64,000 nt of DNA, taken from Clostridiales bacterium. Lineage in GTDB: Bacteria > Bacillota > Clostridia > Christensenellales > Aristaeellaceae. The notes under the pieces are model-generated. The model was not told the origin of the DNA, did not search any database, and was given only the letters and a program-made list of their open reading frames with translations. Positions 6,175 to 11,558 of the stretch are shown here, piece after piece; the stretch's first letter is position 1, and each line of letters begins with the position of its first letter. Location: assembly GCA_015056155.1 (NCBI GenBank), contig SVGU01000001.1:1-64000 (forward strand), written 5' to 3'. A program made the translations under genes and the position numbers.

Positions 6175-7443
6175 TCAATTGAGCCCAAGCGCCCCGGCGC
6201 CCTCGTCGATGTCGAGGGTGGCGAAGTAGTCCTTGGGGGTCTCGGCGCGGCGGATGAGGCGGAAGGAGCCGTCCTCGCGGTGGAGGACTTCGGCGGAGCG
6301 GAGGCGGCCGTTGTAGTTGTAGCCCATGGCGTGACCGTGGGCGCCGGTGTCATGGATGACGAGCAGGTCGCCCTCGGCGATCTCGGGCAGCATGCGGTCG
6401 ATGGCGAACTTGTCGTTGTTCTCGCACAGGCAGCCGGTCACGTCGTAGAGGTGGTCGCAGGGCTGATCGGCCTTGCCGCAGACGGTGATGTGGTGGTACG
6501 CGCCGTACATCGCCGGGCGCATCAGGTTGGCGGCACAGGCGTCCACGCCGATATAGTGCTTGTAGGTGTCCTTGTGGTGGATGGCATGGGTCACCAGCCA
6601 GCCGATGGGGCCGGTCATCCAGCGGCCCAGCTCGGTCTTGATGGCCACGCCGCCCTCGGGGAAGACGGCCTCGTAGGCTTGGCGCACGCCCTCGCCCACG
6701 GCGAAGATATCGGTCTTGTGCGCGTCGGGCAGGTAGGGGATGCCCACGCCGCCGGAGAGGTTGATGAAGTCCAGCGTCAGACCGGTCTCTGCGGCCAGGT
6801 CGCGCCCGACGGCAAAGAGGATCTTCGCCAGGGCGGGATAGTAGCCGTCGTCGGTGTTGTTGGAGGACAGGAAGGAATGCAGGCCGAAGCGCTTTGCGCC
6901 CTTCGCCTTGAGGATGCGCAGACCCTCCTGCAGCTGGGCGTAGGTGAAGCCGTACTTGGCGTCGCCGGGATTGCCCATGATCTCCGTACCGATGCGGAAA
7001 TCGCCGCCGGGATTGTAGCGGCAGCAGACAGTCTCCGGGATGCCGCCGTGCTGCTCGAGGATGTCGATGTGGGTGATGTCGTCAAGGTTGATGTACGCGC
7101 CGACGGCCCGGGCGTGGTCGAACTCCTCATAGGGCATGGCGTTGGCGGAGAACATCACGTCGCGGCCGGAGAAGCCGCAGCATTCGGCGAGCATCAGCTC
7201 CGTTTCGCTGGAGCAGTCCACGCCGCAGCCCTCCTCCTTCAGGATGCGGAGGATGGCGGGGTTGGGCAGCGCCTTGACGGCAAAGTATTCCTGAAAATCG
7301 CTGCACCAGGAAAACGCCTTCTTCAGGTCGCGGGCGTTGCGGCGCAGACCGGCTTCGTCGTAGAGGTGGAAGGGGGTGGCAAACCGGGCGGCAGCCTGCT
7401 CAAACACGCTGTCCGGCAGAGAAAAATTCGGCATAATCATCAC
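6175..7443 (-). CDS. lysA: Diaminopimelate decarboxylase
   Basis: PLP-dependent fold III decarboxylase: YFAVKALPNPAIL, GVDCSSETEL, GLHSFLSSN, NLSGGVGIPY, TELGRW. Confidence 0.85.
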   Translation of the reverse strand: MMIMPNFSLPDSVFEQAAARFATPFHLYDEAGLRRNARDLKKAFSWCSDFQEYFAVKALPNPAILRILKEEGCGVDCSSETELMLAECCGFSGRDVMFSANAMPYEEFDHARAVGAYINLDDITHIDILEQHGGIPETVCCRYNPGGDFRIGTEIMGNPGDAKYGFTYAQLQEGLRILKAKGAKRFGLHSFLSSNNTDDGYYPALAKILFAVGRDLAAETGLTLDFINLSGGVGIPYLPDAHKTDIFAVGEGVRQAYEAVFPEGGVAIKTELGRWMTGPIGWLVTHAIHHKDTYKHYIGVDACAANLMRPAMYGAYHHITVCGKADQPCDHLYDVTGCLCENNDKFAIDRMLPEIAEGDLLVIHDTGAHGHAMGYNYNGRLRSAEVLHREDGSFRLIRRAETPKDYFATLDIDEGAGALGLN

Positions 7444-7642
7444 TCCGGCGATTCAGTAGTGGTTTTCCTGCTCAATATAGCACAACCGGACGGGAAGTGC
7501 AAGTGTTTTGGATGTTCCTGTCATCCGCGGGGGAGAATCCTGCCGTTGCCCTGCGTTGGTAAGTGTGGTACAATGTTGCATATCCTTCCGGCCGGAGAGC
7601 GAAGACGGCGCGGAAGAACGGGATACCGAAGGAGAGATCAGC

Positions 7643-9304
7643 ATGGCAGAACGCATGAGCATCGGCTGCCCCCAGTGCCAGGCGAACGTGGAATACATCG
7701 CGGGAGCGCATCAGGCCTGCTGCCCGGTGTGCGGGCGGATATTCGACCCGGAGGGCGAGAGCGAACGCCTCCGCGCGACCGTCACCAGCCGCAGCAGCGA
7801 CATCCGCATGACGGGCGGGATCGCCCCGGACGCGCTGGTGTGGAAGCATCCGCAGACGCTCTTCCCTCTCAGCGCGCGCATCATCGCCAAGGCCGGCATG
7901 ACCGCCGTCGTCGTGCAGGGCGATCAGCAGGTCTTCGCGGTCAACGGCCAGAGCGTGCTGCTGTCCGAGACGAGCCTGCGGGCGGACGCCTGCTCCTATG
8001 GCCCCGCAGGAGACAAGCTCGTGTACGCGGAGGTCTACTATGTCCGCAACAGCATCCCGCAGGCGGTGTTCGCCTGGGGCGGACGGGCTTCCCTTGTGGG
8101 CAGCTACAATGATATGCATGCCTTCGCGCTCAACGGCACCTGCCAGCTTGCGCCGATCGTGGATCACGCGGCGTTCCTGCGCTTTGTGAATTTCGACTGC
8201 GGCGTCCGCGCCTCTGCCTTTGCGCTGCGCCGGGACGAAAGCGGCGTGGAGACGGCGGGCGAATATGCAAGGAGCATCGTCCGGGCGATGCGCGCGGTCT
8301 ATGGCGAGGCGCTGCGCCGAGTGCGCGACCGCATGGGGCTGATGCCCTCGATGCTGGGGAACTGCGCGGAGGAGATCGCCTGCGAGGTGGAGCGCCTGGC
8401 CGGCAGAGAGCTGGCCGGATGGGGCCTGGCGGTGGAGCGGGTCGTCGCGGCGGATGTGAAGTATCTGGGGATCGATGTGCACGGCGATCCGCTGCGCCTG
8501 CGCGTGGAGGGTGCGCTGGACTGGTCGGCCGGGGAGATCCGCGTCCATCAGAAGGGCGCGCCGGAGATCTACGCGCAGCTGCGCCTGAGCGGCAGCCTGT
8601 ACATCGCCGTGACGGACGAGGACCGGCTGCGCCAGGCCACCGCCGCCGTGCGCTGGAGCATGGGCGATGCAGACGGGGCGCGCCGGGAGCTTGCGGCGCA
8701 CGCGGGGAGCCTGCTGGGCAGTATGTTCGCTTCCGTGTTCCAGAACCTGATCGAGGACCTGAATCCGCCGCTGGACATGCTGGGTACCTATGCCGGGTAT
8801 CTCCGGGCGCAGGCGGAGAAGCTGCTGAACGAGCCGTCGGAGCTGCTGAGCCGGCATGGCCTGTGCGCGCAGCAGCTGACGCTCCGGGTGGAGGTCGCCG
8901 GAAAGTCGCCGCTGTACGCCCTCCGGGAGCGGGAGGCGCTGGCGGTGAGCGAAGCCGGGCTGCGCGAACGGCTCGCGGCATACGCGCCGAAGGGCTGTTC
9001 CGGGGCAGCTGCCGGGCAGCAAGGCGCCGATATGACGCCGGAAATGGAGAATGCGGCGCTCCAGCGGATGCTGGCATACCTGATCGGCCGGAACGCCATG
9101 ATGCTGACGCAGACCACGGCGCAGGAGCTCCTCACCGCTGCGGACGTCAGCGCCGGCAGCGGACTCGCCCGCTGGCTGACGGCGCAGCTTCCGGGCGCGC
9201 CTGCTTCGCTGTTCTCCGGTGCGCAGGGGACGCGCCGCTGCATGTTCTGCCAGTATGATATTCCCGTCCATGCCGTCCTGTGCCCCCACTGCGGCCACTT
9301 CTAA
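7643..9304 (+). CDS. SPFH/Band-7 domain protein with terminal zinc ribbons
   Basis: CPQCQANV...CCPVCGRIF at N-terminus, SPFH-like core (AVVVQGDQQVFAVNGQSV...VYAEVYYV...AVFAWGG), CMFCQYDIPVHAVLCPHCGHF at C-terminus. Confidence 0.75.
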   Translation: MAERMSIGCPQCQANVEYIAGAHQACCPVCGRIFDPEGESERLRATVTSRSSDIRMTGGIAPDALVWKHPQTLFPLSARIIAKAGMTAVVVQGDQQVFAVNGQSVLLSETSLRADACSYGPAGDKLVYAEVYYVRNSIPQAVFAWGGRASLVGSYNDMHAFALNGTCQLAPIVDHAAFLRFVNFDCGVRASAFALRRDESGVETAGEYARSIVRAMRAVYGEALRRVRDRMGLMPSMLGNCAEEIACEVERLAGRELAGWGLAVERVVAADVKYLGIDVHGDPLRLRVEGALDWSAGEIRVHQKGAPEIYAQLRLSGSLYIAVTDEDRLRQATAAVRWSMGDADGARRELAAHAGSLLGSMFASVFQNLIEDLNPPLDMLGTYAGYLRAQAEKLLNEPSELLSRHGLCAQQLTLRVEVAGKSPLYALREREALAVSEAGLRERLAAYAPKGCSGAAAGQQGADMTPEMENAALQRMLAYLIGRNAMMLTQTTAQELLTAADVSAGSGLARWLTAQLPGAPASLFSGAQGTRRCMFCQYDIPVHAVLCPHCGHF

Positions 9305-9320
9305 AATAGGAAAACAGAAG

Positions 9321-9366
9321 GCAGCCCTGCCGACCCGGAACGTACCGGGGACAGGGCTGCTGTTTC
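9321..9366. terminator. Bidirectional terminator between convergent SPFH and TIR-LRR genes
   Basis: GCAGCCCTG...CAGGGCTGC with inner CCCGG/CCGGG stem, flanked by aaaacag / ctgtttctttg. Confidence 0.8.
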
Positions 9367-9394
9367 TTTGGGGAATGGGATGCGGAAGCCTTCC

Positions 9395-11398
9395 TCACTT
9401 GTACACCCGTCGGAGCTGCAGGCAGGTGCTGAAGGCGTCGGGGGCCGCGTTGGCGCGCACGGGCAGGCTGACCTCCCGCAGGGATACGCACATGGCGAAG
9501 GCTTCGCTGCCGATGGAATCGAGCGAGCGGGGCAGGTCCGCCTCGCGCAGGCCGCTGCAGCGGCGGAAGGCCCGGGCGGGGATCGCCCGCACGCCCTCCG
9601 GCAGCACCAGCCCCAGCAGGCCGAAGCAGCCCTCGAAGGCGCCTTCGCCCAGCGTCGTCAGCGACGGCGGCAGGTCGAGGATGCGCAGCCGGCTGCATTC
9701 CATGAAGGCCTGTGCGCCGATGGCCTCCAGCGAAGCGGGCAGGGTCAGCGCGGTCATCGCGGCGCAGGAGCGGAACGTGCCGGGCTGGATGCAGCGCACG
9801 CCTGCCGGGACGACTGCGCTGCGCAGGCTGAAGCACCGCAGGAACGCCTCCGCCCCAAGGCTGATCAGCCCGGCGGGCAGACGGACGCTGTGCAGGGCCG
9901 CGCAGTCCGCAAAGGCGCGGCTGCCGATCACGGTCACGCGGTCGGGGAGGACGATCTCCCGCAGGCTGCTGCAGCCGGAAAACGCGCATGCGCCGATGGA
10001 GACGAGGGTGTCGGGCAGGGTGATGCGCGTCAGCGCCGTGCAGGCGGCGAAGGCGTTGTCCCCCAGCGCCGTCACGCCCCGGGGGATATCCAGCGCCGTC
10101 ACCGACGGGTCGCAGCAGCCTTCCCTGAGGATCACGCCGCTTTCGCCGGATTCGGCGGTGAGCTGCTGCGCGGCAAGGCCCTGGCGCAGCTGCCGCAGGG
10201 CCATGGAGGCGGCGAGGCAGCCCTCGTACAGGCGGCGCTCGTCGGCGGAGGCGAAGTGCAGGGCGCGCGTCCATGCCAGCGTGGTCTCGAAGGGCTCCGT
10301 GCAGGCGGCGAGCTGCGCCTCGTCGCGCAGGTGCATTTCGGCCAGCAGCTGCCCCATGTAGCCGGCGGCGCGGTTAGGCTGCTTTTCCCGCAGGAGCGCC
10401 GCGGCGCGGGCTGCCCCGTCCCAGCTGCCCTCCTCCAGCGCGAGCTGGATGCGCAGGCGGATCAGATCCGTCTCCGAGGCCGTGCGCGGGATGTGCAGCT
10501 CCAGCGTAGAGCGCAGGTTGTCCAGCGCGTTCAGGCCGCGCATGTGCACGCCCTCCAGCTGGCGGCTGACGAAGGCCGGGGGCAGGCTGGAGGCGGGCGG
10601 GTCGTCGTAGAGCAGCGGCACCAGATGGCGCGAGGGATCCCGGTCCGCCTGCTCCAGATAGCGCGTCCATTCGCTGCGCACCCAGGGCGACAGGAGGTAA
10701 TCCTTCCGGGAGCAGATGACCAGCATGACGCGGGCGGTCTTCAGCGCGTGATAGATCTGCGCCTCGAAATTCGTGCCGGCGCTGCGCTGCAGGGTGCCGT
10801 GGGCGAAGAAGACGTGGTAGCCCATCTGCACCAGATGCGCGTAGATCTCCCGCGCGCGGTCGAAATCATCGGTGAATGCGCCGCTGACGCCGGGGACGGA
10901 CGCCTTGTAGCACAGGAAGATATCGTAGGGCTTCGTGGTCTCCTCGACCCGGCGCACGTCGGCCAGCACCTTGTCGAGGTAAACGGCTTCCTCCCGGTAC
11001 TGGGCGCGCACGTCCTCCGGCGCGTTCTCGCAGGCGAGGAGGAAGTCGCCGTCCTCGCTCACGGGTCTGCGCTGCACAAAGCGGCACACCGGAAGCCGCC
11101 TGCGCCCGGGCTCAGCCGTTTCGATGTACTGCACGCCGTAGCGGCACAGCACCAGCCCCCAGAGGGCCTCGTGATCCCCGGGATGCTGGCGCAGCACCTG
11201 CTGGTAGCTCTGCGCCGCGTCATCGAAGTCGCAGGCCATGCGCTGCTGTACGGCGCGGGTCAGGTCGGCGGAGGCGCTCTGGGAGGGCGGACGGGTGTTC
11301 AGCGTGCCGCAGGCGGCGCACTCCAGCGTGTTCATGCCCTCGGGAAAGAATAATTCGTGCACGCAGCACCGGCACAGGATCCTGTTTGCGGACATCAT
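9395..11398 (-). CDS. Zinc-ribbon TIR-domain protein with C-terminal BspA-type leucine-rich repeats
   Basis: CRCCVHELFFPEGMNTLECAACG ribbon; TIR YDIFLCYKAS...GYHVFFAHGTLQRSAGTNFEAQIYHALKTARVMLVICS...WVRSEWTRYLE; ten ~23-aa LRR_5 units (xxAFxxCxxLxxIxLPxxL). Confidence 0.88.
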   Translation of the reverse strand: MMSANRILCRCCVHELFFPEGMNTLECAACGTLNTRPPSQSASADLTRAVQQRMACDFDDAAQSYQQVLRQHPGDHEALWGLVLCRYGVQYIETAEPGRRRLPVCRFVQRRPVSEDGDFLLACENAPEDVRAQYREEAVYLDKVLADVRRVEETTKPYDIFLCYKASVPGVSGAFTDDFDRAREIYAHLVQMGYHVFFAHGTLQRSAGTNFEAQIYHALKTARVMLVICSRKDYLLSPWVRSEWTRYLEQADRDPSRHLVPLLYDDPPASSLPPAFVSRQLEGVHMRGLNALDNLRSTLELHIPRTASETDLIRLRIQLALEEGSWDGAARAAALLREKQPNRAAGYMGQLLAEMHLRDEAQLAACTEPFETTLAWTRALHFASADERRLYEGCLAASMALRQLRQGLAAQQLTAESGESGVILREGCCDPSVTALDIPRGVTALGDNAFAACTALTRITLPDTLVSIGACAFSGCSSLREIVLPDRVTVIGSRAFADCAALHSVRLPAGLISLGAEAFLRCFSLRSAVVPAGVRCIQPGTFRSCAAMTALTLPASLEAIGAQAFMECSRLRILDLPPSLTTLGEGAFEGCFGLLGLVLPEGVRAIPARAFRRCSGLREADLPRSLDSIGSEAFAMCVSLREVSLPVRANAAPDAFSTCLQLRRVYK

Positions 11399-11558
11399 GG
11401 TACGCTCCTTTTGTATAGCTGGAAGGGCAGCGGGTCTCATCCGGTTCAACGCAGCGGGACCGGACGCTTCGCGCGCCGCGGAAAAATCGGCCGGATCGTT
11501 TTTTTCTGGTACATATTGTAACACAAAGCGCGCGGCTTGTCGATACGGTCGGCGCGGC

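Follow-up and report, generated by a model that had tools for sequence, protein, structure and literature searches.

A TIR protein with leucine-rich repeats and its SPFH-family neighbour in a clostridial genome: one form of a recurrent gene pairing with a candidate role in conflict

Two convergent genes, one for a TIR protein with leucine-rich repeats (LRRs) (P0001) and one for an SPFH-family protein (P0002), lie in the window, a stretch of 64,000 nucleotides that was analysed as contig C129 of a 2.9 Mb draft genome (74% complete) with gut and rumen Clostridia as its named relatives. An earlier note had read them as a pair that shares zinc ribbons and as a candidate signalling or immune module. 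The locus raises the questions of whether the two genes belong together and what such a pair may do. The features of the locus are listed in Table 1.

P0001 consists of a zinc ribbon, TPR-like helices, a TIR domain, a second TPR-like segment and exactly ten BspA-type LRRs of 23 residues each. The TIR fold was confirmed by profile (TIR_2, 55.6 bits against a cut-off of 28), and TPR chains were the best matches when the PDB was searched with a profile of the head, the part ahead of the LRR tail. The AlphaFold2 model has a mean pLDDT of 90; a PDB fold search with this model returned mostly LRR proteins and was uninformative on the TIR pocket. The tail is up to 28-33% identical to solved BspA-type LRR proteins. 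For P0002 on its own, the Pfam SPFH models gave no match; in its family alignment, Band_7_1 is matched by nine of the 11 members and Band_7 by seven. The predicted fold resembles stomatin, prohibitin, HflK/C and flotillin, with Foldseek E values from 4e-7 (stomatin) to 1e-5 for a model with a pLDDT of only 63. A Pfam match to the Rad50 zinc hook was rejected, since it is below the cut-off and reflects just the CxxC pattern. Profile and predicted fold together are taken to establish the SPFH and TIR identities. The domain content proposed in the earlier note, including the glutamate in NFEAQIYHAL, the ten LRRs and the CxxC ribbons at both ends of a convergent SPFH/Band-7 neighbour, agrees with the Pfam profiles, the repeat register, the alignments, the cysteine pairs, the Band_7 relatives and the Foldseek matches.

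Both genes have a Shine-Dalgarno-like sequence upstream of the start, and they end 90 bp apart. The hairpin between them is probably a terminator shared by both; a terminator pattern scan did not pick it up. Many SPFH proteins are attached to membranes via lipids or hairpins. A Kyte-Doolittle scan found no hydrophobic segment in P0002 or its relatives, P0001 likewise contains no hydrophobic or membrane segment, and the window has no gene for the small four-helix membrane protein that belongs to the canonical operon. The suggestion that the SPFH protein supplies a membrane scaffold is therefore weak for the window copy. In loci other than the window's, attachment of the SPFH protein via the small membrane protein is possible.

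Table 1. Features of the convergent gene pair, with positions in the window.
Feature	Position	Strand	Basis
Promoter-like site before SPFH gene	7546..7574	plus	9/12 with extended -10; pattern match only
SPFH-family gene P0002 (553 aa)	7643..9304	plus	intact ORF with RBS, Band_7 relatives, Foldseek
P0002 N-terminal zinc ribbon, Cys 9/12 and 27/30	7667..7732	plus	invariant columns, family alignment
SPFH (Band 7) core and following helices	7784..8836	plus	alignment A4, profile match 387 bits
P0002 C-terminal zinc ribbon, Cys 533/536 and 547/550	9239..9304	plus	sequence, weak DZR match
Hairpin between convergent genes	9300..9376		fold -32.2 kcal/mol, z -3.39
TIR-LRR gene P0001 (667 aa)	9395..11398	minus	intact ORF, Pfam profiles, AlphaFold2 model
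Ten BspA-type leucine-rich repeats (tail)	9413..10102	minus	LRR_5 1.1e-52, repeat register
Second TPR-like helical segment, last part common to relatives	10154..10486	minus	A3 consensus
TIR domain	10490..10930	minus	TIR_2 E 9.5e-15
Glu212 codon, putative catalytic glutamate, within NFEAQIYHAL	10763..10765	minus	E in 138/141 heads
TPR-like helices ahead of TIR	11141..11281	minus	weak TPR_16 match
P0001 zinc ribbon, Cys 9/12 and 27/30	11309..11374	minus	C27, C30 conserved in 135 heads
Promoter-like site before TIR-LRR gene	11515..11543	minus	10/12 with extended -10; pattern match only

P0002 and the TIR head were used as separate queries against 150 genomes of the family, where they were positive in 11 and 16 genomes respectively. 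The SPFH gene is present in all ten family genomes with a strong TIR-head match (Fisher 9e-15; n=150) and an SPFH match in 22 of the 24 head-positive genomes of the class (Fisher 4e-12; n=391), p-values that overstate independence because the genomes are related. The eleventh SPFH gene of the family search is cut by a contig end, and in about 20 of the 22 co-occurrences in the class the SPFH gene lies close to the head on the same contig. When GTDB contigs were scanned with just the TIR head, 78 named loci were obtained, which belong to Clostridia, Bacilli, Lentisphaerota, Solobacterium and one Alistipes bin and come mostly from gut and rumen bacteria. An SPFH gene is present in 45 of these loci, always sharing its strand with the closest TIR gene and, in all but one, separated from it by at most one gene. 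Additionally, 37 of the 45 contain a gene for a small (about 230 aa) membrane protein. Usually SPFH comes first and the small membrane protein second, and the TIR genes flank them on one side or the other, or on both. Lack of co-conservation, which the earlier note had named as a refuting outcome, was not observed. The proposed pairing is thereby strongly supported well beyond the window, by adjacency and by the co-conservation of the two genes: TIR-head genes are tied, physically and phylogenetically, to one SPFH/zinc-ribbon gene and usually also to the small four-helix membrane protein.

Within the genus, TIR heads occur in five of the 18 genomes, and a TIR-type SPFH gene adjoins in each of the five. 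The number of heads per genome varies from none (13 of 18) to two in the window genome, about nine in G546 and about 12 in G148; the latter two genomes have one TIR-type SPFH gene each. Another, distinct SPFH gene is found in nearly every genome of the genus.

Sequence comparison of the receptors shows that the head (zinc ribbon, TPR, TIR, TPR) is conserved and joined to an exchangeable repeat tail. For 64 pairs whose heads have at least 80% identity, the median tail identity is 33%, with 47 pairs below 50%, compared with 92% for control proteins from the same loci (7 pairs only). Tandem neighbours within one locus have head/tail identities of, for example, 98/33, 97/37 and 94/31. The tail families matched are DUF6273, RCC1, TPR, LRR_5, FGE-sulfatase-like, ankyrin, WG and BACON. 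Among 129 receptors, 67 have no membrane segment and 52 have exactly one, always after the head. A reading as polymorphic toxins, with constant head and toxic tail, was rejected, since it is the enzyme-like part that stays constant, and the tails are binding repeats. A phage origin of the pair was also rejected: the best 15 of 33 phage records all match the LRR part alone, and none matches the head. BspA-type LRR proteins without a TIR head are encoded by many gut phage contigs (records H1-H15), with 26-39% identity to the window tail. No plasmids with the head of a relative were found.

One site is common to the window, G148 and G546: there, a decarboxylase is followed by an SPFH gene (plus) convergent with a TIR gene (minus). 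Across the three species, the decarboxylase is 84-89% identical, SPFH 32-40% and the TIR protein 42-51% over the shared part; most of the flanking genes on the far side are 82-90% identical, and two are at 58% and 71%. Homology of P0001 to the G148 and G546 proteins stops near residues 384-426, ahead of the LRRs, which only the window copy possesses; in the other two, TPR and an unnamed end domain take up this position. The mismatch of the tails between conserved flanks implies exchange of the sensor at a fixed site, or gene replacement. The SPFH proteins also differ in length, with 553 aa in the window and 920-927 aa in G148 and G546. Other species of the genus have unrelated genes beside the decarboxylase (window 6175-7443, orthologues in loci L174-L190). 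In G540, a single 3487-aa protein is encoded at this site, which looks like a variable spot. Two large genes for proteins of unknown function lie between decarboxylase and SPFH in G148 only (L190 1597-7832), the first of which scores 22.2 bits, below the cut-off of 23.8, with a model for RNA-dependent RNA polymerase.

It is common for related SPFH genes to occur without TIR. In such loci, the same zinc ribbon is frequently seen at the start of the next gene, TPR may or may not be present, and other parts come after, for example a membrane segment with DUF6591. The sharing of zinc ribbons that had been noticed in the window pair thus extends to these loci. Since the same zinc ribbon is retained in TIR-less partners, this suggests that the zinc ribbon may be a docking part and the TIR one optional output. 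At L164 (1-1278), a fusion joins the small membrane protein to TPR and DUF6273 sensor parts, and a tail can thus be borne by this protein as well.

The pair is best explained as one version of a modular TIR-receptor/SPFH system that occurs in gut Clostridia and in some other phyla and may be NAD-linked and used in conflict, a reading for which we consider the chances evenly balanced. The repeat tail would be the sensor; in about 40% of the relatives it would lie past a single membrane helix, and in the window copy it is probably in the cytosol, because P0001 has no membrane segment. The zinc-ribbon/TPR part would dock receptors on an SPFH ring; ligand binding would then cluster the TIR domains, and the clustered TIRs may hydrolyse or cyclise NAD+, resulting in a growth stop or a nucleotide signal. 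We read the TIR as the signalling or NAD-consuming part of this receptor/scaffold system. In an alignment with the plant TIR L6, Glu212 lies two helix positions off the catalytic glutamate of plant TIRs, at what we take to be the position of that residue in L6; its register presumably agrees with SARM1. The most likely use would be conflict, above all phage infection. An anti-phage function is plausible, with a few loci adjoining known defence genes and the window's adjoining none, and an immune role would be consistent with the fast evolution, the exchanged sensor tails and a few defence-gene neighbours.

The alternative that survives best is sensing of envelope or nutrients by non-lethal signalling, in which the tails (DUF6273 lectin-like, RCC1, BACON, LRR) would bind extracellular glycans or host or diet ligands and the TIR would serve as an assembly domain or signal to gene expression. 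Such a role would suit the membrane helix that follows the head in about 40% of receptors, the BACON and DUF6273/FGE-like tails appropriate for glycan binding, the gut and rumen origin of most named loci, and the TIR-less partners that retain zinc ribbon, membrane helix and DUF6591 or TPR. We nevertheless regard it as unlikely: a pure scaffold does not need the almost invariant glutamate, fast divergence at a fixed site is typical of conflict, and half of the receptors, including the window's, have no membrane helix. The genomic distribution bears on a second alternative, envelope-stress housekeeping, in which SPFH and zinc-ribbon clients would manage membrane or protein quality and the TIR would be a captured client domain with no immune role. 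The TIR heads are accessory, being present in so few genomes of the genus, and the strong asymmetry between head and tail is odd for quality control, so that this account seems quite improbable despite the abundance of TIR-less SPFH genes with zinc-ribbon neighbours and the distinct second SPFH gene in nearly every genome of the genus. It is very improbable that the window carries a decayed or orphaned copy of a real system, its SPFH coiled coil lost and its members perhaps no longer working together, as the shorter P0002, the missing small membrane gene and the separate transcripts of convergent genes might imply, because both ORFs are intact, have an RBS and show clean domains, three species retain the convergent order, and the cysteine and glutamate positions are preserved.

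Against the favoured reading as a conflict system count the many SPFH relatives of this type that occur without TIR, the offset of Glu212 from the plant glutamate, and some of the results with neighbouring genes and curated defence models. No defence gene lies beside the window pair, which is flanked by housekeeping genes, and no ThsA-type effector gene adjoins the window TIR, whose neighbours are SPFH, the decarboxylase and FucU. Elsewhere, among 44 loci, DRT UG24 (E=0) adjoins one head locus, by sequence motif probably L136, JetA/JetC (Wadjet) adjoin L140 (G588), and AbiEi adjoins L142. Across 44 genomes there are three strong JetC and 11 AbiEi matches, one of each near the system, which is no more than suggestive, since the families were picked after the hits had been seen. 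JetA/JetC as neighbours of L121 were rejected, since JetC is at L140 and L121's genome has none; Mokosh neighbours were not counted, since the MkoA model matches 42 of the 44 genomes and is thus a general helicase model. PADLOC 2023 gave only Ago-TIR models for P0001 (0.002-0.003), none for P0002, and nothing below 1e-3 for the full proteins of seven relatives. The PDC-S66 model reached 3.4e-8 and matched 16 of 27 heads, but not the full-length proteins tested. The heads are weakly similar to the Thoeris type III ThcB4 (best 3.2e-10) and retron-TIR models; the window head scored 21.5 bits with ThcB4, against a cut-off of 220, and the head reached the cut-off of none of the curated defence models. 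The SPFH-TIR pair is not described in PADLOC, NCBIfam or the papers searched, which were mostly from outside subscription journals.

In Thoeris, the TIR protein is the sensor and senses capsids (PMC12578639). The SPFH-TIR system resembles Thoeris (ThsB sensor and ThsA effector; type III ThcB) in having TIR proteins with a putative catalytic glutamate, several genes of which may adjoin one shared partner. It differs in that no SIR2, SLOG or macro effector gene was found beside the pair, the partner being SPFH, and in that its receptors bear large exchangeable repeat tails. SpbK is a single-protein TIR defence (PMC12847820). With SpbK and TIR-STING, the likeness is a TIR effector joined to a sensing part. 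To our knowledge, these have neither a zinc-ribbon/TPR head nor an SPFH partner. TIR-NB-LRR proteins and Toll-like receptors also combine TIR with LRR or another sensor in large paralogue families with variable sensors, whereas the SPFH-TIR system has BspA-type LRRs and a TIR that precedes the membrane helix, and P0001 has only TPR-like helices and no NB-ARC or STAND NTPase between TIR and LRR. For the likeness of the bacterial and eukaryotic proteins, descent seems a less likely origin than separate assembly from the same kinds of parts. P0002 has the predicted fold of SPFH/Band 7 proteins (stomatin, prohibitin, HflK/C, flotillin), with Band_7_1 in its relatives, but differs from them by its zinc ribbons, the lack of a predicted membrane segment and a gene tied to TIR receptors. 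P0001 shares ten LRR_5 repeats with BspA-type LRR surface proteins, but its LRRs are behind a TIR head, without a membrane segment, and are probably cytosolic.

It is a tentative and rather doubtful proposal that the system is a bacterial counterpart of germ-line receptor repertoires, with one shared SPFH signalling platform per genome and many paralogous TIR receptors that have a head for docking and signalling in common and exchange their sensor tails by recombination. If true, abundant gut bacteria would hold families of TIR receptors with swapped sensors on a constant head and one shared SPFH platform, an arrangement familiar in the immune systems of animals and plants rather than in bacteria. 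SPFH/zinc-ribbon proteins without a functional name would be assigned a role, and concrete genes would be available for testing TIR recognition, including those of the cultured Ruminococcus flavefaciens and Pseudoflavonifractor capillosus.

The window genome also contains a second, split set (G000:C119, locus L074, 5728-8953), in which three genes in a row encode a TIR-like protein with a vWA-like end (judged by eye, Pfam giving no match), a zinc-ribbon/LRR_5 protein that stands on its own and an SPFH/zinc-ribbon protein. These are only 38-49% identical to their G148 versions (L055), and two flanking genes are 84-85% identical.
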